From assembly GCA_001770015.1 (NCBI GenBank), contig MEQB01000054.1, forward strand, positions 1 to 35,742: a DNA stretch of 35,742 nucleotides. The letters run 5' to 3'. How positions within the stretch are numbered: position 1 is the stretch's first letter; each line of letters starts with the position of its first letter. This document shows, piece by piece, positions 162 through 35,117 of this stretch. This DNA comes from Bdellovibrionales bacterium RIFOXYC1_FULL_37_79. GTDB lineage: Bacteria > Bdellovibrionota > Bacteriovoracia > Bacteriovoracales > Bacteriovoracaceae. A program made the position numbers and the translations under genes. Below the pieces are notes generated by a model. The model was not told the DNA's origin, ran no database searches, and saw only the letters and a program-made list of their open reading frames with translations.

Positions 162-953
162 ATGAATACAAATGAAACATTTTATCTCGAAAAACTAAAA
201 AGCGAATTTTCGTTAAGACAACGATACAACTCAAACTATTCTCTGCGGGCTTTTGCCAGGGATCTAAAAATTGACTCGTCAAATTTAAGCGCTATTTTAA
301 GAAATAAGAGAAATTTACCAACTCGAAGAGCTAAAAGTATTGCAGATGTCCTCAAGCTATCTCCCAAAGAAATGGCTCTTTTTATAGGAAGTACATATAG
401 AAAAAAAATGACCTTGGATAAAATCAAAATAATTAAAGAGAGTAAGCGATATCTTTTAGACGAATCATATTATCATGTGATTGCAGAATGGGAGCATTAT
501 GCTTTTTTACAATTGCTAAAAGTTGATGGTTTTAAACATAATATTGAGTGGATTGCAAAACGGTTAGGAATTTCCAAAGATAGGGCGAACATTGTTATTA
601 ATAATTTGCTTCGTCTTAAAATGATAGAACTTAAAAAAGATGGAACTTATCATCGAATTACAGCAGCATTAGAAACATCAGAAGACATCGAATCCAGGGC
701 CTTACAAAAGTCTCATATCGAAAACCTTGAATTAGCAAAAGTGAAACTAGAAAAAACTGAAGTTACAAAACGTGATTATAGTTCAATTACATTTGCAGTT
801 GATCCAAAAAAAATACCTGAGGCAAAGGCCATTATTAGAGAATTCCAAGAAAAACTTTATACCCTGATGAGTGTTTCAAATCCCAAAGAAGTTTATATAT
901 TTTCTAGTCAACTATTTCCTACAACAAATATGGAGTATCAAAATGAAAAATAA
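162..953 (+). CDS. TIGR02147 family protein (putative DNA-binding regulator)
   Basis: This 263-residue soluble protein resembles the TIGR02147 family, which is expanded in Bdellovibrio and Fibrobacter relatives. Residues about 20-75 look like an Xre/Cro-type helix-turn-helix (SLRAFARDLKIDSSNLSAIL). Residues about 105-160 look like a second winged-helix segment (WIAKRLGISKDRANIVINNL). The C-terminal part (SSITFAVDPKKIPEAKAII) matches the usual family ending. Its last 11 bases overlap the start of the next gene (943), so the two are almost certainly co-transcribed and translationally coupled. A role as regulator of its secreted partner is inferred from this arrangement and from the HTH-like segments. 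I am confident of the family and have no evidence for the target genes. Confidence 0.8.
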   Translation: MNTNETFYLEKLKSEFSLRQRYNSNYSLRAFARDLKIDSSNLSAILRNKRNLPTRRAKSIADVLKLSPKEMALFIGSTYRKKMTLDKIKIIKESKRYLLDESYYHVIAEWEHYAFLQLLKVDGFKHNIEWIAKRLGISKDRANIVINNLLRLKMIELKKDGTYHRITAALETSEDIESRALQKSHIENLELAKVKLEKTEVTKRDYSSITFAVDPKKIPEAKAIIREFQEKLYTLMSVSNPKEVYIFSSQLFPTTNMEYQNEK

Positions 954-2379
954 AATAATTATTTTTTCAGCATTATTATTTTCACTTTCCTCGTTTGCTG
1001 AACTTGATAGAAAGGGCAACGGCGGTGATGGTGTGGTTTGCTATGACGATCAGAAAAATATCTTATCTGTCACTCTATTAGATTTATATGAAAGATCATT
1101 GGGTCGTGAAATGGGGAATGCAACAAGCTGGCAACAAAAATTACAATATGTTCTTAACAATATTAATGAATACGACTATTTCAGAGGAAAACTCTACGAA
1201 AAATGGCTTACAGAATTTGATAATGAGGCAAGCTTTAGAGATGGTATAGAGTTATCAGATATTTCAGACTCAAATCACATCACTATTCCAAAAGGATGTA
1301 AGATTGAGCAGCTCGCAATCCAGATAGAACCCAAATTTGAAGGGGATTTTCGTTATACAATTAACAATGATCTATGGTCGCATATGGATGCCGAAAATAG
1401 AGCTGGATTAATTTTACATGAATTTGTTTACCGAGAAGCGATTGGTTATAATCATCAGGACAGTATTTCAACACGTTTTCTTACCGCTTATTTTATTGCA
1501 AACCGTCTGAAAAATAAAAATGACAAGGAACGTTTTGAGTTTTATAAAAACGCAAATTTTCTTAAAATGTCCGTAGTTATGAACGCTCAATGGTTAGAAA
1601 TAAAACTTGGCCACTTTGAAATTAATGAGTGGACTAATAAAGAGTTTATTGTTTGGCATAATACCAAATTTTTTCAAACCAATAAATTAGAAGAAGCTTA
1701 CTTATCAGATGGATTCTTCAAAGCAGATAATGATGTCTTTTACCCAGGATATGGCCTTACCAATTTTTATGAAAATGAAAAAGTTAGTTACTCCAAACAA
1801 CTAATTCCAAAAGAGATTAAATATGGCAACCTAAATTTAATTTTAAAGAGTAATATCGATAATAATACTGTTGAATACTTTTTTGACGAGAACGGAAAAA
1901 TCAGCCACCTGAAATTTAGTGATAATTTTAGTGGATGGAATACTCATCCTTCTTCCAAGTTTAGTATAGAGAATATTTCTCCTTTTGAATCATTTTCTAT
2001 TGAGTCTGGATTTGATAGTATCTATTTTAATAGCAATAAAACAGTAGCTAAAATAATATTTAATTATTCAAGTTCAATCAGCACAACATATAAAAATAAA
2101 AAAATTAAAGTAAGTGACTTCAAAGAAGTAAAATTTGACTATGAAATTAAAGATGTTGTTTTTTTTCCTGATACCTATAACAGATGGGAAACAAAGGTAA
2201 AAATCAATGATCAAGATTTAAAATTAAAGTTTGACACAATATCAATAAAAAACATATTTGAAAATCCTAATTTTGAATCCTTGAAATTTGAAGGAAGTAG
2301 CAATTCTCATTGGCAAACACAACAAAAAGCATATGATTTTCCCAATAAATTATTAATAATAAGTTATTCCAAAAACTAA
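943..2379 (+). CDS. Secreted protein with GNGGDGVVC motif and LHExxYREA segment
   Basis: The start at 943 is preferred over an in-frame ATG at 871. It has a GGAG-like site at 932-935, and it begins with a clean signal peptide of about 19 residues ending SSFA|EL; the earlier start would bury that signal. The mature protein opens with GNGGDGVVC (residues 25-33), a motif I associate with a family of exported proteins in Bdellovibrio relatives. LILHEFVYREA places His159-Glu160 in a helix like those of zinc peptidases, but no HExxH is present, so peptidase activity is uncertain. The remaining ~270 residues look beta-rich and I do not recognise them. The gene overlaps the upstream TIGR02147 gene by 11 bp and so forms a regulator/exported-protein pair. 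Confidence 0.75.
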   Translation: MKNKIIIFSALLFSLSSFAELDRKGNGGDGVVCYDDQKNILSVTLLDLYERSLGREMGNATSWQQKLQYVLNNINEYDYFRGKLYEKWLTEFDNEASFRDGIELSDISDSNHITIPKGCKIEQLAIQIEPKFEGDFRYTINNDLWSHMDAENRAGLILHEFVYREAIGYNHQDSISTRFLTAYFIANRLKNKNDKERFEFYKNANFLKMSVVMNAQWLEIKLGHFEINEWTNKEFIVWHNTKFFQTNKLEEAYLSDGFFKADNDVFYPGYGLTNFYENEKVSYSKQLIPKEIKYGNLNLILKSNIDNNTVEYFFDENGKISHLKFSDNFSGWNTHPSSKFSIENISPFESFSIESGFDSIYFNSNKTVAKIIFNYSSSISTTYKNKKIKVSDFKEVKFDYEIKDVVFFPDTYNRWETKVKINDQDLKLKFDTISIKNIFENPNFESLKFEGSSNSHWQTQQKAYDFPNKLLIISYSKN

Positions 2380-6815: not shown

Positions 6816-7529
6816 CTAGCCCTGTGCGTCTTTGAAACCCAGTAAATAACCCAAGGCCACATTAACTGCCGTTGGCGCTCTCATGATTGGAAGATCCATT
6901 TTCAACAAATTAACATTAGCGAGAACATTGATTGCTTTCTCTTCACTTTCAGAAAAACCCCCTTCCGGACCGATTAACATAAGATTTTTTTTACCAAAAT
7001 TAATTTTTTTTTGATCACACTTGATCTTGGTGGAAAAGGCAAAGACGTAATCGTAACCGCTGACAATCTCAATCAACGTTTCAAATTCTATGGTTTTTTG
7101 AAGTACTGGAAGATAAGGATTGTTTGATTGAACTAGGGCCGTTTCAATTATTTTATCTGTTCTTTCCTCAGATAAGAATATTTTCTGGGAAAACTCACTT
7201 TTTACTTGAATGATATTGGATATCCCCATTTCCACGGAGGATTTTAAAATCGACTCATAAGCTTCTTTTTTTGGTAAACAAAGAGCCAAATCCATCCAGG
7301 TGTTTTTTTCCTTGAAATTTATTTTAACCACTTTCAAAAATGCAGATTTGTTAGTGGCCTTCTCCAGTTGTGTGATAATCTCCAGGCCATTTCCATTTAG
7401 TACCATTATCTGCTCACCTGCTTTGATTCTGGCGACGTTAAGCAAATGATGAAGACATTCACCTTTTAATTCAAAAATCTCTCCCGCTTTTAACATTTCA
7501 TTAATTGATTGATCAAATACCGCTCTCAT
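6816..7529 (-). CDS. rsmE: 16S rRNA (uracil1498-N3)-methyltransferase
   Basis: RsmE methylates U1498 of 16S rRNA using S-adenosylmethionine; it is a SPOUT-class enzyme. The signature IGPEGGFSESEE lies at about residues 186-197, followed by a motif-3 region (MRAPTAVNVALGYLLG). The N-terminal ~70 residues form the expected PUA-like domain (LKGECLHHLLNVARIKAGEQ). I place the start at 7529 (protein MRAVFDQS, 237 residues). It overlaps the prmA stop as TGATG, has an AGGA site, and matches the normal RsmE N-terminus. An in-frame ATG at 7559 would add ten residues. Usual family length is about 240 residues, which fits. Confidence 0.92.
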   Translation of the reverse strand: MRAVFDQSINEMLKAGEIFELKGECLHHLLNVARIKAGEQIMVLNGNGLEIITQLEKATNKSAFLKVVKINFKEKNTWMDLALCLPKKEAYESILKSSVEMGISNIIQVKSEFSQKIFLSEERTDKIIETALVQSNNPYLPVLQKTIEFETLIEIVSGYDYVFAFSTKIKCDQKKINFGKKNLMLIGPEGGFSESEEKAINVLANVNLLKMDLPIMRAPTAVNVALGYLLGFKDAQG

Positions 7530-8509
7530 CAATTTTTCCTGAGTAAAACCGCACTCCATCCATTTTTATTTATTTCCTGAATAATTTCGAGCGAAGAGTA
7601 GTGATTTTTAATATTATCGAGTTGATCATTCAAAAGACCTGAAAGGATTAAATATCCGTTTCGATTTAAACTTTTTAATAAAAAAAATTTCTCCTTTAAT
7701 AAGACCTGTTCCAAAATATTAGCAAAAATAAGGTCATAGGTTTTATCCTGGTTCAATCTCTCCCTTATCACGAGACAATGTCCTTCCAAATCCTGATCTT
7801 TGAAATTAAAGGTTAGGTTTTCCAGACAATTATCCATCGCTTCAACGTCCACATCCGAAAATGTCACCAGAAGATCAGTATTTTTAATTGCAGCAATTCC
7901 AAGTATTCCCGAACCACAGCCCAGATCCAGGCATTCCCCCTTGAGAGACGACTGAAGCTTAGTCAGTTCATCCAGCAGTTTTAAACACATCCAGGTGGTT
8001 TCGTGTCCACCCGTACCAAATCCCTGGCCGGGATTGATAAAGATCTTGTCCTTATCATATCGATTGCTTTCGTTTAATTGCCAAATAGGATAAATATTTA
8101 TGTTTTTACTGACATGTACACTGCTAAAAAATTTTTTCCACTCCTCAATACCATTTTCCCATTTTTTTTCAATTCGACTGAGGTGAATATTCTGGAAGTT
8201 ATTGGATAAATATTTCAAACAATCCGCTGAGCGCTGTTTGGCTTCATCACTTGAAAAAATAATGCTAAATTCCTCAACCTCGTTTTGCTTTTGTCTCTCT
8301 TCAATTCTTAATAATATTTCCTCAGGGATCACATCACTAACCAGGGCATCTCGGCCTAAGATTTTATCAATCTGGTCATCTTCCAGGGTAAACTCTTCAA
8401 TATAATCACATCCATAAATATTTACAGCATCTTCTTTTATTTGAGACACTTGCTGGTCATATTCTCTAGCAACACAGATTTTTAATACATAATATTTGGT
8501 TGGTTTCAT
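7529..8509 (-). CDS. prmA: Ribosomal protein L11 methyltransferase
   Basis: PrmA methylates lysines and the N-terminus of ribosomal protein L11. It has an N-terminal substrate-recognition domain and a C-terminal Rossmann methyltransferase domain containing GQGFGTGGHET (161-171), the S-adenosylmethionine motif LDLGCGSGILGIAA (194-207), and a catalytic-region FANILEQVLL. At 326 residues it is slightly longer than the usual ~295, mainly because of the N-terminal domain. It is the first gene of the prmA-rsmE-RDD-rfaE2 run; the 60-base divergent gap to the B-box gene must hold its promoter. No clear ribosome-binding site precedes the ATG. Confidence 0.92.
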   Translation of the reverse strand: MKPTKYYVLKICVAREYDQQVSQIKEDAVNIYGCDYIEEFTLEDDQIDKILGRDALVSDVIPEEILLRIEERQKQNEVEEFSIIFSSDEAKQRSADCLKYLSNNFQNIHLSRIEKKWENGIEEWKKFFSSVHVSKNINIYPIWQLNESNRYDKDKIFINPGQGFGTGGHETTWMCLKLLDELTKLQSSLKGECLDLGCGSGILGIAAIKNTDLLVTFSDVDVEAMDNCLENLTFNFKDQDLEGHCLVIRERLNQDKTYDLIFANILEQVLLKEKFFLLKSLNRNGYLILSGLLNDQLDNIKNHYSSLEIIQEINKNGWSAVLLRKN

Positions 8510-8569
8510 ACGAAAAGACTAAAAATTATCATACAAATAGACAAGAAAATTAATTATCATTAGTATAAT

Positions 8570-9124
8570 ATGATGGAAAATTTAAATATCTATTTATACG
8601 TTATTATTCTCCTTCTAATTGTACTCATCGTTTTGGCCATTATTGTTCTGGTTGGAATAATTTTCCTTTATTTTAACAAAATTGCCACCCCTAAAGACTT
8701 GACCAATGACAAGAAAACATCCAATTCAAACACTTTTTACTGCACCAATCATCCTGACACCCACTCGGTTGGAATATGCATGATCTGCCAGAAAAGTTTT
8801 TGCGCAAAATGCTTATGTGACCATGACCGACTTAATTTTTGCCATGATCACTTAAAACTTTATTTGGAAAACGAATGGCAACAATTGGAAACCATTCTAA
8901 CTGAACCCAATCAGCCAGAGAAGGCCATGGTACTTTACGATTTCAAGAAAATCATATGGGACAAGGAAAATAAGCCATCTTATGTAGTCACCCACTATAA
9001 AATTAATTTTCAAGGCGATTATATTGAATCTTTTGTAAGTCTATATGTAAAAAAGCAAGACGGCTTTGAAATGACCAAGCGTCTTGCTTCTTTTAAGGAA
9101 AATTATTCCACTCAAGTATCCTAG
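8570..9124 (+). CDS. Membrane-anchored B-box-type zinc-finger protein
   Basis: This is a 184-residue protein. Residues 7-35 are a strong transmembrane helix. Residues 58-94 hold the ligand series Cys58, His61, Cys70, Cys73, Cys78, Cys81, His85, Cys91, His94, which matches a B-box zinc-binding pattern; small bacterial proteins with this layout exist. The C-terminal ~80 residues are soluble, with no family I recognise. There is no Shine-Dalgarno sequence: TATAAT (8564-8569) directly abuts the ATG, so a leaderless or unusual start is possible. The last 23 codons (from 9053) fall inside a sequence that is repeated twice more downstream, and they encode a terminator-like hairpin. Function is unknown. 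Confidence 0.75.
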   Translation: MMENLNIYLYVIILLLIVLIVLAIIVLVGIIFLYFNKIATPKDLTNDKKTSNSNTFYCTNHPDTHSVGICMICQKSFCAKCLCDHDRLNFCHDHLKLYLENEWQQLETILTEPNQPEKAMVLYDFKKIIWDKENKPSYVVTHYKINFQGDYIESFVSLYVKKQDGFEMTKRLASFKENYSTQVS

Positions 9125-9238
9125 CTTTTTAAAAAAATTGGCTGAATTTTTCCGGTATTAAAACCAATTTTTTTGCAATAAAATATATATGAGTATTTGA
9201 TGTTTTACTCATAAGAAGTGAGGTTTTATGAAATTTAT
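9051..9238 (+). repeat. Leader repeat, copy 1 (B-box gene tail + intergenic + start of secreted gene A)
   Basis: This ~188 bp sequence recurs at 10088-10276 and 11168-11355 with about ten or fewer differences per pair by eye. It contains the final codons of the B-box gene, a hairpin/T-run (9053-9094), an AT-rich inverted repeat AAAATTGG...CCAATTTT (9134-9171), a short ATGAGT/ACTCAT hairpin, the site GTGAGG, and the codons ATG AAA TTT AT. Similarity between all three copies stops inside the fourth codon of the downstream genes. Confidence 0.9.
9053..9094 (+). terminator. Terminator-like hairpin inside the 3' end of the B-box gene
   Basis: AAGCAAGACG (9053-9062) pairs with CGTCTTGCTT (9080-9089). 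With a bulged G, CTT/AAG extends the stem to 13 pairs, and CTTTT follows. It lies about 30 bases before the stop codon, so here it is coding. The copies at 10090 and 11170 lie outside genes, just after the stops of secreted genes A and B, where they can act as real terminators. Confidence 0.55.
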
Positions 9239-10088
9239 TTTAATTTTTCTTTTTTTATTCTCTAATTTTGCTTTTGCCAATGTTAAACATTGCCAAACTT
9301 ACTTGCGATCTCTACCCAACTATTTAAAACCCCACTATGGAGTGAGATGGAGCATGGATGAGCAAGGAAAATTGAAACGTGAAGATATAAAATTTCTCAA
9401 AGGATTATCTAACTCTATTGAGCTTAACCCAGTTTTCAATTTGATAGAAAACAAAAATGGGACTATTAACCTTGAAGAAGTTAATAAAGAAGGTTTTAAA
9501 AATCAAGTTGTGTTATCACTTGATTCGATGAAACGAATTATAAAAATTGATCACAACTTCGGTATTAATCCAGATGATATGAAAAATTCTCAAACTACCT
9601 TTTTTTCCTACAAAAATGACGTTTGTTATCCTGCACTAGTTACTAGTACTCAACCTGGATCAGGAAATGAACTTTTAGCGCATACTGCCCTTTGTCAGGA
9701 GCTTAGAGAATATTTATTAAATGTAAAAGATAAAGAAGAACCCTTTAAGTGTGTCTGTGGCACCGACAAAACCAACAATGACTTAACTGGCATATTCAAG
9801 CGTCACAGCGAGATTGATTTAAATGGTGAAATATGGACTTATAATTATGACTCCATTATTAAACACCCTCAAGGAACTTTTTCTCTTAAGGATAAAGATA
9901 ACACTGGTCTAATGTCGTCATCACTAACCCCTAGTCATAAAGCAATTCAAGTAATTAATATTTGTTTTTCTTTTGAGGGTATTAGCGATGCCATCAAAGA
10001 CCCAACTTTATGGGAGAAACCAACAGAAAAATCTATTCCTCCGCCAGAAGTCCAAGGTGATCCAATTCAGAAGATCAAATTAAAATGA
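9228..10088 (+). CDS. Secreted six-cysteine protein, paralogue A
   Basis: This 286-residue protein has a Sec signal peptide (MKFILIFLFLFSNFAFA|NV). The mature protein has exactly six cysteines (22, 133, 156, 175, 177, 246), all conserved in paralogues B and C: HCQTYL, DVCYPAL, ALCQEL, FKCVCGT and NICFSF. These probably form three disulphides outside the cytoplasm. The C-terminus is a Pro-rich tail (KPTEKSIPPPEVQGDP). I do not recognise the family. The gene has a GTGAGG site six bases before the ATG and is the first of three tandem copies, each behind the same leader. It is most similar to B, including near-identical DNA for the signal peptide and the tail. It could be a surface- or prey-directed factor, but nothing in the sequence shows that. 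Confidence 0.8.
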   Translation: MKFILIFLFLFSNFAFANVKHCQTYLRSLPNYLKPHYGVRWSMDEQGKLKREDIKFLKGLSNSIELNPVFNLIENKNGTINLEEVNKEGFKNQVVLSLDSMKRIIKIDHNFGINPDDMKNSQTTFFSYKNDVCYPALVTSTQPGSGNELLAHTALCQELREYLLNVKDKEEPFKCVCGTDKTNNDLTGIFKRHSEIDLNGEIWTYNYDSIIKHPQGTFSLKDKDNTGLMSSSLTPSHKAIQVINICFSFEGISDAIKDPTLWEKPTEKSIPPPEVQGDPIQKIKLK

Positions 10089-10276
10089 AAAGCAAGACGG
10101 CTTTAAAATGAACAAGCGTCTTGCTTCTTTTAAGGAAAATTATTCCACTCAAGTATCCTAGCTTTTTAAAAAAAATGGCTGAATTTTTCCGGTATTAAAA
10201 CCAATTTTTTTCCAATAAAATATATATGAGTGTTTGATTTCTTTGCTCATAAGAAGTGAGGTTTTATGAAATTTAT
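10088..10276 (+). repeat. Leader repeat, copy 2
   Basis: Second copy of the tail-plus-leader sequence, beginning at the stop of paralogue A and ending at codon 4 of paralogue B. Compared with copy 1 it has scattered substitutions, for example GAA to AAA and ACC to AAC in the former coding part and GTATT to GTGTT in the small hairpin. The downstream hairpin can still pair (GU in place of AU). Confidence 0.9.
10090..10161 (+). pseudogene. Orphan copy of the B-box gene's 3' end (first)
   Basis: In frame it reads KQDGFKMNKRLASFKENY followed by STQVS and stop, matching the last 23 residues of the B-box protein with two changes. There is no upstream coding sequence or start, so it is a duplication relic. 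Its hairpin, directly after gene A, probably now serves as that gene's terminator. Confidence 0.85.
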
Positions 10277-11159
10277 TTTAATTTTTCTTTTTTTATTCTC
10301 TAATTTTGCTTTTGCAAATATCAAGCATTGTCAGACCTACTTACGATCTCTACCGTCTAATTTTGAACCTCAATACGGGATGGGTTGGAGCATGGATGAA
10401 CAAGGAAAATTAAAACTTGAAGATAATAAATTTCTCAAAGGGTTATCTAACGCGATTGCGGGTAACCCCGTTTTCAACTATACCACAAACAAAGATGGAA
10501 CTGTTAGCCTTGAAAAAGTTGATAAAAGAGGTTTTAGAGATAAAATTTTATTAACACTTGATTCAAAAGGACGAATTATAAAAATACATCACGAACTTAA
10601 CAATGATTCAGATGAAATTGTATTAACATATGATTCAAAAGGACAATTAAAAAAAACAGCTGGCGAAACTAGTCAAAATAATCTAGAAGATCATCGAACC
10701 ACCTTTTTTTCCTATAAGGATGATACTTGTTATCCTGCAGTTATCACATCCGATGTCTATATGCTTGCAAATACCGCCCTTTGCCAAGAACTAAGAGAAT
10801 ATTTATTAAAAAATAAAGATGAAGCCTTTAAATGTGTCTGTGGCACCAACAAAACCAATAAAGCAATAACCGACATATTTAACAGTCACCGCGAAATGGA
10901 TTTCAATGGTAAAAAAATAACCTTCGATTATGATTTAACAATGGGCGACCCTCAGGGAATCTTTTCTTCAAAAGATAAAGGTGGTGCTGATTTCGATTTA
11001 TTATTATCACCCAGTCATAATGCGATTGATACAATTCATCGTTGCTTTAGCTATAAGGGTGTTAGCGGTGCCATCGAAGATAAAACTATATGGGAAAAAC
11101 CTACAGAAAAATCTATTCCTCCGACAGAAGTCCAAGGTGATCCAATTCAGAAGACCTAA
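10266..11159 (+). CDS. Secreted six-cysteine protein, paralogue B
   Basis: This 297-residue protein is the closest relative of paralogue A. It has the same signal peptide (MKFILIFLFLFSNFAFA), the same six cysteines and the same C-terminal IPPTEVQGDPIQK tail. It differs by an insertion after about residue 100, where LTLDSKGRIIKI is followed by a second similar segment, LTYDSKGQLKKT. This looks like a short internal duplication, visible also in the DNA at about 10550-10585 and 10615-10650. The repeats resemble YD/RHS-type short strands only loosely. The gene has its own leader and ribosome-binding site (GTGAGG). Function is unknown; export to the periplasm or outside is well supported by the signal peptide. 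Confidence 0.8.
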   Translation: MKFILIFLFLFSNFAFANIKHCQTYLRSLPSNFEPQYGMGWSMDEQGKLKLEDNKFLKGLSNAIAGNPVFNYTTNKDGTVSLEKVDKRGFRDKILLTLDSKGRIIKIHHELNNDSDEIVLTYDSKGQLKKTAGETSQNNLEDHRTTFFSYKDDTCYPAVITSDVYMLANTALCQELREYLLKNKDEAFKCVCGTNKTNKAITDIFNSHREMDFNGKKITFDYDLTMGDPQGIFSSKDKGGADFDLLLSPSHNAIDTIHRCFSYKGVSGAIEDKTIWEKPTEKSIPPTEVQGDPIQKT

Positions 11160-11167
11160 TTAAAATA

Positions 11168-11355
11168 AAAAGCAAGACGGCTTTGAGATGACCAAGCGTC
11201 TTGCTTCTTTTAAGGATAATTATTCTACTCAAGTATCCTAGCTTTTTAAAAAAATTGGCTGAATTTTCCCGGTATTAAAACCAATTTTTTTGCAATAAAA
11301 TATATGTGAGTGTTTGATTTTTTGCTCATAAGAAGTGAGGTTTTATGAAATTTAT
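11168..11355 (+). repeat. Leader repeat, copy 3
   Basis: Third copy, between paralogues B and C. It is about as close to copy 1 as copy 2 is, yet the gene that follows (C) is far more diverged than B. Similarity to the other copies ends after ATGAAATTTAT of gene C. Confidence 0.9.
11170..11241 (+). pseudogene. Orphan copy of the B-box gene's 3' end (second)
   Basis: In frame it reads KQDGFEMTKRLASFKDNY followed by STQVS and stop, one residue different from the intact gene; two further base changes are silent. It has no start codon of its own and lies directly after the stop of gene B. Confidence 0.85.
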
Positions 11356-12235
11356 AACAATCATTTATGTACTGTTTTCATGCGCCACAATTTTGGCCGC
11401 TTCGGACAAAAACTATTGTGATACTTATTTATCAAATCGTACATATGGAACACCCCTTTATGGTGAAAAATGGAAGATTAACAATGATGGTACATTAAAA
11501 ATGATTGATAAGACCCCAACTCCAACAATAAATGAAGGTACGTTAAATGCATTAGTATATAGTTATTCTGAAAAAGGTAACGTAGTGGTTATTAATTCAG
11601 CTCAAGGAAACTTTCGTGGTCCGACAGATAAAGAACAAATTGTTTTTAAACTTGACAGCAATAAAAAAATTTTAAGTATGCAATTTGGTACACATCAATA
11701 TGAAGACTCATATCGTTATCATAGAACAATTCTTTTTGATAACAAAAATGGAATCTGCTATCCTCAACTTGCCCTAGAAGGAGCACTTGACATTAATCCC
11801 GTCACTAAAAGTTACGATGATAATTCTCCTATAGATGGTATAATAAACAATAGTATTTATTTTAATACGGAATTATGCCGAGATTTAAATGCATATATAA
11901 ATAATGAGAAAAATAAAGATACTGTAATGAAATGTAGTTGTGGAACAAGTCAATCAAATAAAATTTTAACGGATATTATTAATAAACATAATAAGATTAA
12001 AATATCAGGCAAAGATTATTCTTTTGAAGGAAAGCCAAAATTTTATACAGATGGAATCTTTGATACAGAAATGATTCAAAAATTTGTTGACCTCACTCCT
12101 ACCACTCAAGCCTTGTCCATTCTAAAAGATTGCAATATAAGAGGAGTTATTGAGACTATCTCGGACGATGATCTATGGAAAGAAGCACCTACCAAGGAAA
12201 CGCCCAACAAAGGTAGCGCAACTGCGGGTGGTTAA
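11345..12235 (+). CDS. Secreted six-cysteine protein, diverged paralogue C
   Basis: This 296-residue protein has signal peptide MKFITIIYVLFSCATILAA. The body keeps the six cysteine positions of A and B (NYCDTYL, GICYPQL, ELCRDL, MKCSCGT, KDCNIRG) and the order of elements, but little other sequence. It lacks the QGDPIQK tail, ending instead GSATAGG. The extra cysteine in the signal region does not make a convincing lipobox (Phe at -2). The same leader precedes it as precedes A and B, and nothing similar follows it, so it is the end of the array. It converges on ftsZ. Confidence 0.78.
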   Translation: MKFITIIYVLFSCATILAASDKNYCDTYLSNRTYGTPLYGEKWKINNDGTLKMIDKTPTPTINEGTLNALVYSYSEKGNVVVINSAQGNFRGPTDKEQIVFKLDSNKKILSMQFGTHQYEDSYRYHRTILFDNKNGICYPQLALEGALDINPVTKSYDDNSPIDGIINNSIYFNTELCRDLNAYINNEKNKDTVMKCSCGTSQSNKILTDIINKHNKIKISGKDYSFEGKPKFYTDGIFDTEMIQKFVDLTPTTQALSILKDCNIRGVIETISDDDLWKEAPTKETPNKGSATAGG

Positions 12236-12260
12236 TAAATTTACTACTGTTGACAATTAA

Positions 12261-12281
12261 TGCTGAAAAAAATCATCAGCA
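12261..12281. terminator. Possible shared terminator hairpin between gene C and ftsZ
   Basis: TGCTGA (12261-12266) pairs with TCAGCA (12276-12281), with AT-rich flanks that extend the pairing imperfectly. It lies in the 48-base gap between convergent genes. There is no long T-run in either direction, so the call is weak. Confidence 0.35.
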
Positions 12282-12283
12282 AA

Positions 12284-13684
12284 TTAATTAATATTATTTT
12301 CCGTAACTTCCAAATCTCTTCGTAAGAAAGTAGGCGTATCCAACTCTTCTTCGTCAAAATTAATAAACCCAAGTTTTTCAGCGATGGTTTTGGCTTTTAC
12401 AGCGCTGCTGGTTGACCTTTTTATCTCAGGTAAAACGGGTTTGGTCTTCACCGGATTAGCATTGGTGGTTCGCTCACTTTGAAAACCTTTTTTATCCTGT
12501 TCATACTGACTAGCAGCTTCTTTGATGGTTTTTACCAGATTGGATGTAGCCGATTCAGTAATGCGGGTCTGCAGCGGTTCCATGGTACTGTGATGCTCAG
12601 TTTTATTTTTACCTACGTCATTTGTCCCGTAAGTATCCTGAGTCATCATGGTGACTTCCTCGACTTCCGGTCTTTCACTTTTATGCACTTCTCTCACTGA
12701 TTTGGTAGTAACTCGCTCAAGACCGCCCAGTCCCGTCGCAATCACTGTCACTTTTACACTTTCTCCCATGTTATTATCAAAAACATGACCAACAATAATT
12801 TCCGCTTCTTCATCCGCCGCTTCCATGATTAACGTCGCAGCTTCGTTAATTTCATGCATGGTCATATTCTGACTTCCGGTAATATTAATAATAATCCCGG
12901 TGGCACCATCAATAGAAATATCCTCAAGCAGTGGTGAGCTAATGGCATCAGTAGCCGCTTTAATGGCCCGATCCGTACCCGAAGCAATTCCAGTGCCCAT
13001 TAAGGCAAGACCTTTGTTGGCCATGACAGTGCTAACATCTGCAAAATCACAATTAATAAAACCGGTGGAATTAATCAAATCGGCAATTCCTCTGACTGCA
13101 TTTAACAATACGTCATCTGCCTTTTTAAATGTATCTATAAGAGAGAGGTTTTCTCCTGCTAAAAAAAGCAATCTTTGATTTGGAATAGTAATCAGAGAAT
13201 CCACATTCTCCTCAAGATTGGCGATCCCTGCTTCGGCTTGACGGAATCTTTTTTTACCTTCGAATAAAAAAGGCTTGGTTACCACACCAACCGTGAGTGC
13301 GCCCATTTCTTTGGCCAGCTTGGCAATTACTGGAGCAGCTCCGGTTCCGGTTCCTCCACCCATACCTGCCGTTATAAAAACCATATCAGCGTCTTTTATA
13401 ATTTCACTTAATTTTTCATATTCATCAAGAGCAGCTTTCTTCCCAACCTCTGGATTGGCCCCAGCGCCCAGGCCTTTGGTGGTTGAAACCCCTAGCTGAA
13501 CTTTGATCGGTGCCAGGTTTGATTTGAGTGCTTGAAGATCCGTATTACAAACAATATATTCAACACCCGTAAGTCCTGCGTTTATCATTGTGTTTACTGC
13601 GTTGGAACCACCTCCTCCAACACCTATTACTTTAATTCGTGCACCTTCCATAACGTTGTCCTTTTTTTCAGAAATTTCAAACAT
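12284..13684 (-). CDS. ftsZ: Cell division protein FtsZ
   Basis: FtsZ is the tubulin-like GTPase that forms the Z-ring at midcell. The GTP-binding tubulin signature [10 protein letters not shown] lies at 109-118, the T7 synergy loop region is [11 protein letters not shown], and the C-terminal peptide DTPTFLRR (449-456) binds FtsA and other partners. At 466 residues it is longer than the ~385 usual, because the linker between the core (to about residue 325) and the tail is about 120 residues, rich in Glu, Thr and Lys. The start at 13684 follows GGGGGA. It starts 9 bases after the ftsA stop and is the last gene of the dcw cluster. Confidence 0.98.
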
Positions 13685-13693
13685 AATTTCCCC

Positions 13694-14932
13694 CTAAAAA
13701 ATCTCTTTAAATACAGATTTCAAGGAATCACTCAACCGACTTACTAAATCAGCCTGGTTTATTTCCATATCTTTATTTAATTTATTATGATCACTTTTTC
13801 TTGCAGCTTCAAGCAATAACCCTAAAACCGTGGAGTATTTCGGATTATGCATGATATTGGTCATACCACCAAATGATTTCGGATAACCAATCTTGGTCGG
13901 CATCTCTAAAATATATTCACCAAGCTCGGGAAGACCCTTAGTCAAGGCACCTCCACCCGTTAATATAATTCCACCAGTGATTTCATTTTTAAGATTTTTT
14001 TCTTTAATGACTTCATTAATTAATTCAAATAGCTCCTCTGCTCGTGCGCCCAAGACGTTGGCCACCTCGGCTAAACTTACTTCCCTGGGTTTAGTGCCGT
14101 GAAGCCCTTCAACCGTTATCTTGGCCGATTGATTTAGCTGTTCTGCGAGAACACTTCCATGGTTGGTTTTAATTCTTTCAGCTTCAATATGTGATATTTT
14201 TAAGGCCACGGCTAAGTCATTCGTAAAATGATTTCCACCAACTGGAATAATCTTTGAATGGATTAAACTCCCATTTTTCCAGACAGCAACATCTGTCGTT
14301 CCACCCCCGACATCCACCAGTACAACCCCGAGTTCTTTTTCTTCCTCGCTGAGTACCGCTTCCGACGAAGCAATTGGTTGTAAGGTTATATTTTGTGGGT
14401 GAATACCCGCAAGCTCTACACATCTTAATAAATTTTGTACCAATGAAACCGAACCAGTCACAATATGCACATGCGCTTCCAGCCTCACACCACACATTCC
14501 GACTGGATCTACAATACCTGGAGTATTATCAACTTTAAATTCCATAGGAAGAACGTGTAAAACTTCCCGATCAGAAGGTACGACCACCGCTTTAGCAGCT
14601 TCTAAAACCCTCTCCACGTCCTCATTAGTAATTTCAATTCCCTTGACTGCCACGACTCCTGAACTATTAAAACTATAAATATGACTACCGGCAATTCCAA
14701 TGGTCGCTTCAGTAACATTCACCCCGGCCATCAGCTTGGCTTCCTCTACTGAAGATCTGATCGAGCTTACAGTTTTATCAATATTGACTACTGAACCTTT
14801 TTTAAGCCCTTGCGAGGGATGATTACCTATTCCAATTATTTCCAAACCAGTTTCAGGATGATCCAAACCGACAATGGTACACACTTTGGTGGTACCAACA
14901 TCCAGACCCACAATGATATTTTTATTTTTCAT
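13694..14932 (-). CDS. ftsA: Cell division protein FtsA
   Basis: FtsA is an actin-like ATPase that tethers FtsZ filaments to the membrane. The 412-residue sequence has phosphate-1 (VGLDVGTTKVCTIVG), phosphate-2 (VDVGGGTTDVAVW) and adenosine (ILTGGGALTKGLPEL) motifs. It ends in an amphipathic helix, VSRLSDSLKSVFKEIF, which is the membrane-targeting sequence. The ribosome-binding site is AAGGGA. It is 85 bases downstream of ftsQ, the largest gap in the downstream half of the cluster, and this gap contains a short hairpin with a T-run, so ftsA-ftsZ may have an additional promoter. Confidence 0.97.
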   Translation of the reverse strand: MKNKNIIVGLDVGTTKVCTIVGLDHPETGLEIIGIGNHPSQGLKKGSVVNIDKTVSSIRSSVEEAKLMAGVNVTEATIGIAGSHIYSFNSSGVVAVKGIEITNEDVERVLEAAKAVVVPSDREVLHVLPMEFKVDNTPGIVDPVGMCGVRLEAHVHIVTGSVSLVQNLLRCVELAGIHPQNITLQPIASSEAVLSEEEKELGVVLVDVGGGTTDVAVWKNGSLIHSKIIPVGGNHFTNDLAVALKISHIEAERIKTNHGSVLAEQLNQSAKITVEGLHGTKPREVSLAEVANVLGARAEELFELINEVIKEKNLKNEITGGIILTGGGALTKGLPELGEYILEMPTKIGYPKSFGGMTNIMHNPKYSTVLGLLLEAARKSDHNKLNKDMEINQADLVSRLSDSLKSVFKEIF

Positions 14933-31772: not shown

Positions 31773-31800
31773 GTCAACCATATTGTATTTCAGTCAAATT

Positions 31801-31860
31801 TTACCAAATCTTCACAATCACGGCTGCCGGAATCACCATCAGATCAAAGTCTTTATAGTT
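31801..31860 (-). pseudogene. Ghost of an M13 peptidase gene 3' end
   Basis: On the minus strand this reads NYKDFDLMVIPAAVIVKIW and stop. The intact M13 gene ends CKDTDPMVIPEADIVKIW and stop. Aligning 31801 with 33069 I count 53 identical bases in 65. There is no further upstream coding: the ATPase 3 stop lies at the break. It is therefore a relic of a duplication or of an insertion at the end of an M13 gene. Confidence 0.75.
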
Positions 31861-33007
31861 ACAAGACATTCAAAATAGTACTGACAAGATCTGTATACGG
31901 AATGACGGTGACACGATCATCTTTTAAAGAGTATTTTCCTGTGTAAACCCCAAAGGCTTTTGTTATTATTCCTTCTTCCGCCATTTGATTAAGATTTTTT
32001 GAATACTTACTCTTCCATGAATCAGTAGACTTGATTTCAAACCCCAAGATCTTTTTCCCAACCTTCATAATTAGGTCAACTTCAGCTCCATCCGCAGTTT
32101 TCCAGTAAAAAAATTCGGCACCAAGTTTTTTATATGAATTTGTGGCCTTTAATTCGTTTACAATGAGTGTTTCAAATAATCGTCCTCTTTCCTCGGAATC
32201 AAGGGAATCTCTTAATTTGCCAGAGATTGTGCGAATCACACCAGTATCAAAAAAATAAAATTTGGGATGATTAATTTCTTTAACCTTGTGTTTAGGCCTC
32301 CATGAAGGCAAAAGATAACCAAGCAAGGTATCACAAAGAATTTCAATGTACCCGTTAATGGTGGTTCTTGCCACCTTTGCATTTGATGCAACATTACTGA
32401 CATTTAAAATTTGTCCATTCAAGATGGCCATGACTTCTAAAAACCTTGAAAATGAATCCAATTTTTTAACAAGTGCTTCTTGTTGGATTTCTTCCTTCAT
32501 ATAGGTGCTGACATAACTTTCCAAAAAGTCAGCTTTTATTTCTGTGTCTTTTTGTGATGAGATGATGGGAAGTGTACCATATTTCAAAATGGATTCTAGG
32601 CTTAAGGCACCATCTAATTCATTTAGAGTTAATGGAAATAAATTCCGAGTAAGCGCCCTCCCCGCCAGCATATTACCATTACTTCTTTTTATCTTTCTTG
32701 CTGAGGAACCTGTTAATGCAAACTTCCTTTTGCCCTGGGACTCATACATGGCCTTATGAACTTCATCAAGAAGGGCCGGAATTTTTTGAATCTCATCGAT
32801 AACAATCCATTTATTAATTGGCGCATTTTGGACGATTTGTTGTAAAAGAGATGGATTGTTAAAGAAGGACAAAAATTCTCGATTGGAAAGCAAATCAATT
32901 TTAATTGCATCAGGAAGTTTTTCACCCAGCCAGGTTGATTTGCCAGTCGATCTAGGCCCGAATAGTAAAAAACTGTTAGTTGGAAGCACAAGGTCGCGTT
33001 TAAACAT
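31859..33007 (-). CDS. AAA_14/DUF4143 ATPase, copy 3
   Basis: This 382-residue protein starts MFKRDLVLP and moves directly into Walker A GPRSTGKST (17-25), then Walker B WIVIDEIQKIP, sensor FALTGSSARKIK, and a DUF4143 domain with GAEVDLIMKV...GFEIKST. A GGAAGGGG site precedes the ATG and forms part of an inverted repeat upstream. The gene lies between the intact M13 peptidase gene and a ghost of that gene's 3' end, so it is bounded by 60-65 bp imperfect direct repeats. This suggests it arrived by insertion or by a duplication involving the M13 tail. Confidence 0.9.
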   Translation of the reverse strand: MFKRDLVLPTNSFLLFGPRSTGKSTWLGEKLPDAIKIDLLSNREFLSFFNNPSLLQQIVQNAPINKWIVIDEIQKIPALLDEVHKAMYESQGKRKFALTGSSARKIKRSNGNMLAGRALTRNLFPLTLNELDGALSLESILKYGTLPIISSQKDTEIKADFLESYVSTYMKEEIQQEALVKKLDSFSRFLEVMAILNGQILNVSNVASNAKVARTTINGYIEILCDTLLGYLLPSWRPKHKVKEINHPKFYFFDTGVIRTISGKLRDSLDSEERGRLFETLIVNELKATNSYKKLGAEFFYWKTADGAEVDLIMKVGKKILGFEIKSTDSWKSKYSKNLNQMAEEGIITKAFGVYTGKYSLKDDRVTVIPYTDLVSTILNVL

Positions 33008-33048: not shown

Positions 33049-33068
33049 TGACAATCAGTGGGCAAAGC

Positions 33069-35084
33069 TTACCAAATCTTCACAATATCCGCTTCCGGAA
33101 TCACCATTGGGTCAGTGTCTTTACAGCTATAAGCCTCTTTAAAACCCGCTTGATGTTTTATCTGCTCGTTGGTTCTAGCATAACCCAAGGAATGCGGATC
33201 AATTTTTAATCGAAGTTCTGCGATTTCTGGTTTTTGAATTTCACACCAAAGCCTAGCAAATTGCAAAAAGAATTTTTGTTTTAATTCTTTTGATTTATTT
33301 TTATCATCCCCAAAAGCCGTCCTATAAGCAAGACTTGCTCCAACTAAATCACCAATATTTTCTCCCAGGGTAAATTTACCATTATGACCAATTTTATCAA
33401 ATTGGGTAACCAGATAAGCTGATTTTTGATCAAATGTTTTTTTATCAGCATCATTCATCCAAGATTTTAACAATCCATCTGCGTTATATTTATTTCCATT
33501 ATCGTCAATCGAATGCCCAATCTCATGCGCTATAATCGCACCAATGGCAGCCATATTAACTTCTTCCGATTCATTAACGTCATAAAAAGGATACTGCAAA
33601 ATCCCGACTGGAAAAACTATTTTATTATAAGCCGGATTGTAATAAGCGTTTATGGTTAACGGCCCCATTTCCCAACGATCAGGACTGACATTTTCTCTTA
33701 ATTCTTTTAAATTCTTATCCATGATCAATTTCGTAAGTTTTTTTACATTACCATTAGGCCGATCATTCCAGTAACTGGTTCTTGGATTAAAATCCCATTC
33801 TTCGTTATTATCCGGGCTGACTAATTGCAATTTTATTTTGGTTATTTTTCTTATAGCTTCTTTTTTTGCCTCACTGGTTAGCCAAGAATTTTCTTTTAAT
33901 TGGTCAATCAAAGTTTTTCTAAGCTTTTCAATTGAATTGACAAATTTCTTTTTAGGAAAATTGGGAAACAGTTTTGGCATCAAAATATAGTCCAATTCTT
34001 TTGTAAAACTATTCATAACCAGTTTGGTACAACGCTCCTGTCTCTCTGGTCTAACATTTGGGCCTCCTAAATATTTTTTTCTAAAATCAAAAGATTTTTG
34101 AAAAAAATCAGGATAGGCATCATCCATATATTGCTTTAACTGAAAATATAAAAAAACATTTTTTAATTCTTCCAAAGAAGCTGTTTTAAGCTTGTCATCC
34201 AAAAACTTCATTACCTCAACGCCAATAATATTTCTAATATGAGTATTTTTAGGTATTTTTTTAAGAAACCCTTCAAGTTTTAAATAAGGATAATCCTTTA
34301 TTAATTCTTCTCTTGAAATTGAAGTTCGAGAAGAAACTAATTTTTGTATTTCGGGAGGTGTCGGAAATATCTTTGCCAAATCTTTTTCAAATTCATAAAC
34401 CATTTTTGCCCGTTCACTTGGATCAGGCAATTCGATCGTTTTGAAAAAATCCTCTATTAAAACCAACAAATCCTTAATTAATTCTTCTTTTTCATAATAG
34501 GTTTTTTCAGGTAAAGAACGAAGACTATTATCAAACAATAAATCTTTTTTCAAAGGATTATCTTGATTAGGTAACCCAGCATCAAATTGAACAAAACTGG
34601 TTAATGGCTCTGTAATATTCCTAGCAACCATATTAATGAACTGCTCTCTTGTTGTTATACTATTCATTTGACTTATGGTTTGCTTGACGATCTCCACTTC
34701 TTCTTTTTTACTGGCCTCCTCATTCATACATGCCAGGTAAACTGTCTTAATCTCTTTTTCCATTTGTGATTTTGGTTTAATATTGGCCAAATTTACAAAA
34801 TATTTTTTCTTATAATCTAACAATCTTTCCTCTGCATCATCGAAAGAAAAAATATGGATTGATCGATCTTCCCTAAGCTTAAAACTGTCTATGACTTTGG
34901 AGCAGGCATATTCATAAAAATTTTCGCAGGGATTGATTTTATCGTTAATTGGAAATTCTCTTTTGAGAGGTATTTCTGAGGATCTATTATCCGGAGGTGT
35001 TACATTCTCTTTTTTGGTTTTAAACCAGGATGAGCAACCCGAAATCAATAATGTTAGACAAATCAAAATAAAAATATTTTTCAT
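33069..35084 (-). CDS. M13-family (neprilysin/PepO-like) zinc metallopeptidase, lipoprotein
   Basis: This 671-residue protein has a lipoprotein signal (MKNIFILICLTLLISGC, lipobox LISGC), so it is predicted to be lipid-anchored outside the cytoplasm. After a large N-terminal M13 domain comes the peptidase domain, with NAYYNPAYNKIVFPVGILQ, the zinc site HEIGH (His520 to His524), and GENIGDLVG, which supplies the third zinc ligand (ExxxD). The C-terminus DPMVIPEADIVKIW has the usual family ending. The start at 35084 follows AAGGAGG; an in-frame ATG at 35105 would add seven residues ahead of the signal. It is 33 bases downstream of mglA. M13 peptidases cut peptides; in a predator they might digest prey proteins, which is inference. 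Confidence 0.95.
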   Translation of the reverse strand: MKNIFILICLTLLISGCSSWFKTKKENVTPPDNRSSEIPLKREFPINDKINPCENFYEYACSKVIDSFKLREDRSIHIFSFDDAEERLLDYKKKYFVNLANIKPKSQMEKEIKTVYLACMNEEASKKEEVEIVKQTISQMNSITTREQFINMVARNITEPLTSFVQFDAGLPNQDNPLKKDLLFDNSLRSLPEKTYYEKEELIKDLLVLIEDFFKTIELPDPSERAKMVYEFEKDLAKIFPTPPEIQKLVSSRTSISREELIKDYPYLKLEGFLKKIPKNTHIRNIIGVEVMKFLDDKLKTASLEELKNVFLYFQLKQYMDDAYPDFFQKSFDFRKKYLGGPNVRPERQERCTKLVMNSFTKELDYILMPKLFPNFPKKKFVNSIEKLRKTLIDQLKENSWLTSEAKKEAIRKITKIKLQLVSPDNNEEWDFNPRTSYWNDRPNGNVKKLTKLIMDKNLKELRENVSPDRWEMGPLTINAYYNPAYNKIVFPVGILQYPFYDVNESEEVNMAAIGAIIAHEIGHSIDDNGNKYNADGLLKSWMNDADKKTFDQKSAYLVTQFDKIGHNGKFTLGENIGDLVGASLAYRTAFGDDKNKSKELKQKFFLQFARLWCEIQKPEIAELRLKIDPHSLGYARTNEQIKHQAGFKEAYSCKDTDPMVIPEADIVKIW

Positions 35085-35117
35085 AAAATCCTCCTTGAAA
35101 AGCATCGAAATTATTTA

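Follow-up and report, generated by a model that had tools for sequence, protein, structure and literature searches.

Near-identical leaders that begin in the coding tail of a neighbouring gene precede much older gene bodies in a tandem array of six-cysteine secreted-protein genes

The erp genes of Borrelia burgdorferi (ospE/ospF/elp) join one promoter, leader and localisation sequence to many different bodies, and recombination among them is frequent (PMC10016077, PMC7002432). The locus described here resembles erp and its upstream homology box (UHB) in that a near-constant promoter/operator and leader peptide stand before strongly diverged exported proteins. However, erp genes are found at allelic sites across many cp32 prophages and have bodies of independent origin, whereas we are dealing with one chromosomal tandem array of homologous bodies, and part of its leader is a neighbouring gene’s tail. 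The conserved promoter plus leader peptide of erp/UHB is seen in two of the genes, A and B, which share the leader and 16 signal-peptide codons before a body that is 27% diverged; the third gene, C, shares the leader only. Independent bodies at allelic sites on several replicons were not found, the bodies being homologous and the leader confined to a single locus. Judged by this comparison, the locus is erp/UHB-like in layout and erp/UHB is the closest analogue described, yet the locus is no member of that class. The second relevant pattern is concerted evolution of tandem paralogues, in which homogenised flanks surround diverged middles and similarity falls off where the match ends. A, B and C are tandem paralogues in a single orientation with recognisable unit boundaries, and parts of the units are far more alike than divergence elsewhere allows, with sharp limits. 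In contrast to the usual case, the core of the similarity consists of noncoding DNA and a detached coding tail, and it extends no further than the gene ends. Concerted evolution of tandem-array flanks is already known, and the locus is a new example of it.

The array belongs to the uncultured Bdellovibrio-like bacterium Bdellovibrionales bacterium RIFOXYC1_FULL_37_79, whose draft genome comprises 4.36 Mb in 74 contigs. The window, i.e. the whole stretch of 35,742 nucleotides that was analysed, is one contig, and the species is represented by one genome in all comparisons. The closest relative among the compared genomes is Bdellovibrionales bacterium RIFOXYA1_FULL_36_14, subsequently designated the congener. 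The plus strand carries, in this order, U, A, B and C, followed by convergent ftsZ on the minus strand. Gene U (8570–9124, plus strand) encodes a membrane-anchored protein of 184 aa and has conserved its place next to ftsZ in the family. Leader 1 (9053–9227, plus) overlaps U, the first 72 nt of the leader being the final 24 codons of the gene; it consists of the U 3’ coding tail up to position 9124, an inverted repeat, an AT-rich promoter region and a ribosome-binding region. Gene A (9228–10088, plus) encodes a secreted protein of 286 aa with six conserved cysteines. Leader 2 (10090–10265, plus) carries a detached 24-codon fragment of U directly 3’ of the A stop codon and is followed by gene B (10266–11159, plus), whose product of 297 aa is 64% identical to A. 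Leader 3 (11170–11344, plus), again with a detached 24-codon U fragment, precedes gene C (11345–12235, plus; 296 aa, 28–30% identity to A and B). The array thus sits between U and its convergent conserved neighbour ftsZ (12284–13684, minus strand). No leader copy is present 3’ of C, i.e. unit 3 is without a leader on its 3’ side.

The stop codons of U and ftsZ are only 5–86 nt apart in five other genera, compared to 3159 nt here. Since U abuts ftsZ in these five genera, the U-ftsZ junction is conserved and the array is an insertion into it, a point that, like the origin of the leader start in U coding sequence, is absent from an earlier note on this DNA. A small ORF lies between U and ftsZ in three further genera, and the junction seems to accept insertions; the ORF filling the gap in these three (L019, L020, L022) is a different one of 114–136 aa. 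Leader, U and ftsZ are all absent from the congener’s bin, which is 85% complete. U matched no Pfam or NCBIfam family, though it is kept beside ftsZ in many genera. A conserved Cys/His cluster in U (8570–9124) resembles a B-box-like zinc-binding motif.

The earlier note had described three leaders of ~180 bp differing by roughly ten or fewer bases per pair. This held: over 175–176 alignment columns, leaders A/B differ by 7, A/C by 8 and the remaining pair by 9 substitutions, and no pair has more than a single 1-nt indel. A search of the entire 4.36-Mb genome retrieved three leader copies, all within the array, and revealed neither a fourth leader nor a leader-sharing regulon. Short leader matches in other genomes reflect similarity of AT-rich start regions and are not true leaders. 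The note had further stated that similarity ends at the start of each gene. For copy 3 this is correct: in one-change-point fits identity is lost at 9239 (copy 1) and 10277 (copy 2), ~12 nt into the gene, where the substitution rate jumps from 0.043–0.048 to 0.49–0.56. For copies 1 and 2 it is not, as these remain alike through the signal-peptide codons. They are near-identical past the ATG up to 9277 (codon 17), diverge by 27% over 9278–10022 and then differ by only 5% from 10023 through the next leader. Segmentation with two change points described A/B best (BIC 1141 -> 1046) and yielded 3.1% difference for the leader plus 50 nt of gene, 27.3% for the body and 5.1% for the last ~55 coding nt plus the next leader. 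Gene B is thus near-identical to A over its first 16 and its last ~18–20 codons. The note would have abandoned its reading if identity fell smoothly across the start codon, but identity along the units changes at sharp points. The 11 bases ATGAAATTTAT, which are common to the copies, also open a leaderless relative in another species; because of their presence there, we regard them as ancestral and not as a marker of a breakpoint.

The repeating unit starts within the last 24 codons of U and comprises the U tail, the following inverted repeat, the promoter region and the gene. Accordingly, the first 72 nt of the leader are coding sequence, and a search with the U protein detected, besides U itself, two fragments of 24–25 residues, one at 11167 (96% identity) and one at 10084 (84%), both free of internal stops. 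The C-terminal region of U could be aligned to homologues from 10 other genera, showing that the tail is a genuine part of U and that copying proceeded from U to leaders 2 and 3. As copies 2 and 3 carry the detached tail, the unit probably stems from a tandem duplication whose left breakpoint fell inside U, and the left junction is identical in both leaders. In leader 1, the U stop codon is followed by a terminator-like AT-rich inverted repeat (9129–9176), which is poorly stable in copy 2, then by the AT-rich promoter region containing a dyad (9189–9212) and finally by the ribosome-binding region. A pattern scan for the dyad returned two real sites, copy 2 having an extra base; the remaining matches with 3 mismatches barely exceed a reversed control. 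The U tail itself can fold: directly after the A stop codon, positions 10090–10130 (plus) form a hairpin, AAGCAAGACG...CGTCTTGCTT followed by UCUUUU, of -14.9 kcal/mol, and a second copy after B (11170–11210, plus) reaches -15.8 kcal/mol. From these features we infer that the hairpins are putative terminators of the A and B transcripts. They escaped a terminator pattern scan because of the loop limit of that scan. The hairpin in U’s own tail has -18.5 kcal/mol, compared to -0.3 to -14.5 kcal/mol in ten relatives. One could speculate that the U tail serves as terminator for A and B and that homogenisation also runs backwards, the 3’ coding end of U being rewritten from the detached copies of itself; the hairpin, stronger than in any of the ten relatives, would then be a relic of such editing, but we consider this idea doubtful.

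A second tail copy exists in the window. A 71-nt piece at 31795–31865 (minus strand) is 80% identical to the 3’ end (33063–33133) of a metallopeptidase gene at 33069–35105. On either side of it is an ATPase gene, and the two encoded proteins share 36% identity; the pair represents a second tandem unit with a copied tail. At the ATPase pair, too, a duplicated unit took along the 3’ end of its upstream neighbour, here with the tail decayed to 80%. In contrast to the U-tail leaders, the rest of the ATPase leader is not recognisably similar.

The gene bodies go back much further than the similarity now seen between the leaders. Within the A/B body, pS is 0.45 and pN 0.23, and dN/dS is 0.41 over the entire gene. 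Given the synonymous difference of 0.45 and the dN/dS of ~0.4, the bodies are old rather than fast; the ratio indicates that they are under net purifying selection, and, taken gene-wide, it gave no excess of amino-acid change for the body. Gene C is separated from A and B more deeply still (dN 0.75–0.81). The ends of A and B deviate from this picture: no synonymous difference is present in the first 16 codons, nor in the last ~18–19 shared codons (0/~20 sites at the two ends), compared to 64/140 in the body, with tract boundaries that were chosen post hoc from the same data. Protein constraint does not account for the identity of the ends, because in other members of the family no parts of the protein are less conserved than the signal peptide and the C-terminal tail.

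The earlier note had reasoned that the divergence of noncoding leaders should equal or exceed that of the genes behind them. This premise is too strong and needs a control, since promoter DNA of this genus evolves slowly: two orthologous intergenic promoter regions differ by 8.5% and 14.5% between two species of the genus, while dS of neighbouring genes is 1.0–1.8. We therefore calculated expected leader differences using the family dN as clock and the orthologous promoter DNA as yardstick, a procedure that assumes similar rates among the paralogues. For the A/B leaders, 15–19 differences in 175 positions were expected and 7 observed (P 0.001–0.015). For the pairs involving C, 39–52 in 175 were expected (A/C: 42–52) and 8–9 observed (A/C: 8; P < 1e-9). 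By this measure the leaders are younger than the bodies even when compared to slowly evolving promoter DNA, the evidence being overwhelming for C and moderate for A/B, where part of the similarity could be explained by promoter constraint. The note’s suggestion that the leader is homogenised by recombination gains support, as the leaders are too similar even relative to the promoter control.

Taken together, the locus is a tandem array of genes from an old family of six-cysteine secreted proteins. A duplication that broke within U probably founded the array, and recombination probably keeps its leaders alike. The first two units would stem from a tandem duplication whose left end lay in U, and the third from unequal exchange. 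Thereafter the near-identical leaders would be kept alike by RecA-type recombination between them, either gene conversion or unequal crossing-over, with tracts extending outward while the sequence matches, i.e. through signal peptide and C-terminal tail in A/B and to the start codon only in C. The tracts would enter the A and B genes because recombination spreads as far as sequences match, and would stop at the start of C because the C body is too diverged. Each leader would end the preceding transcript, the U-tail hairpin acting as terminator, and start the next. The outcome would be three separately transcribed genes under one control, which export related but diverged proteins.

Other histories have to be weighed against recombination between the leaders. 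Old tandem paralogues might have received the leader once and fairly recently, without continuing homogenisation, through unequal exchange combined with a deletion by which the leader became joined to C at the common ATGAAATTTAT. The leaders are about equidistant (7, 8, 9), as expected from a single burst, homology of C to A/B ends at its start, and within the family the bases at the point of fusion are ancestral; but A and B, near-identical at both gene ends in spite of old bodies, need a second explanation, and the identical left junction of leaders 2 and 3 also speaks against a one-off event, which we consider rather unlikely. Purifying selection alone would mean that leaders present since the duplications were kept as promoter, terminator and regulatory RNA. 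The slowness of promoter orthologues in the genus fits, as does the identity of hairpin stem and ribosome-binding region in all copies. However, 75 nt of the leader serve no evident purpose in copies 2 and 3, namely the loops of the hairpins and what remains of the detached U tail, and they are nearly unchanged too: 2, 4 and 6 differences were counted there, whereas the body diverges by 27% between A and B and by ~50% for C. Moreover, A/C leader identity is far above the control, synonymous sites are unchanged at both A/B ends, and the known regulatory RNA that the note had named as a competing explanation did not appear, as no Rfam match was obtained over 7500–13700 with E-values up to 1. Selection as sole cause is therefore improbable.

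The note itself had favoured a cassette-type variable locus, in which a constant leader precedes bodies that are swapped or hypervariable. A constant leader before diverged secreted proteins invites this idea, and the Borrelia erp loci show that the pattern is possible (PMC10016077). Against it stand the synonymous difference of 0.45 and dN/dS of ~0.4, which lend no support to swapped or rapidly diversified bodies. Silent donor cassettes with common flanks, as in antigenic variation, were not found: the genome contains no further leaders, the sole other gene of the family lacks the leader, and no leader copy follows C. By reading, no recombinase was recognised among the ORFs of the window, and the family is absent from the viral contigs, plasmids and phages searched, leaving no sign of a mobile origin in these collections. 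We regard a cassette locus as highly improbable. The possibility that short-read assembly of this 74-contig draft joined the leaders from a repeat is practically negligible: the longest exact repeats between copies (70, 41 and 35 nt) do not reach the length of usual reads, and substitutions distinguish the copies from one another. We thus retain tandem duplication followed by recombination between leaders as the likely history.

Six cysteines are invariant in A, B, C and three relatives. The note had granted C little else in common with A and B; the cysteines stand, but the remaining likeness was understated, as C shares 28–30% identity and many further invariant residues with both. In the tree, C forms a deep branch in the same local group as A and B (support 85/85), and alternative placements were not rejected. 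Of the 129 genomes from the taxonomic family, 15 encode a member of this protein family (12 of 48 genera), with one copy per genome except in this genus. The only other family gene in the present genome, the fourth member, is a diverged paralogue adjoining a pepT-like gene; its upstream region is distinct, and the congener carries an orthologue. The note had proposed that the leader be sought upstream of other six-cysteine genes, but the fourth member, its congener orthologue and the congener’s second member all lack it. The fourth member (L011:3958–4785) and its congener orthologue (L012:2314–3132) show a dS of only 0.42 (dN/dS 0.61), compared to 1.0–1.8 for three syntenic genes. Most of the length difference between A and B is due to an internal repeat of B (10538–10595 and 10610–10667), a ‘LxxDSKGxxxK’ beta-hairpin unit with 72-nt spacing and 78% identity, which is absent from A. 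Genes for TIGR02147-family regulators are repeatedly found beside a gene for a secreted ‘GNGGxGxxC’-type protein (window 162–2379; L012:158–2257; L034), and the pairs in L012 and L034 are also near a six-cysteine family gene.

A, B and C matched no NCBIfam entry, none of them had a Pfam match that passed the cut-off, and the six-cysteine proteins had no informative PHROG or PADLOC match and no sequence relative in the PDB. An AlphaFold model (pLDDT 69.5, pTM 0.68) retrieved no Foldseek match at E < 0.07. Rhs-type beta structures were rejected as candidates, since their best VIA-align Z of 6.1 is under the level reached by unrelated models; for this reason no function was drawn from the model. 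Literature searches found no paper on the six-cysteine family.

The array is a compact natural case in which the age difference between leader and body can be measured, and the dead coding fragment within the leader helps to tell recombination from selection. It offers a concrete homogenised locus in an uncultured relative of predatory bacteria and shows a route by which the coding tail of a neighbour may join a regulatory module.
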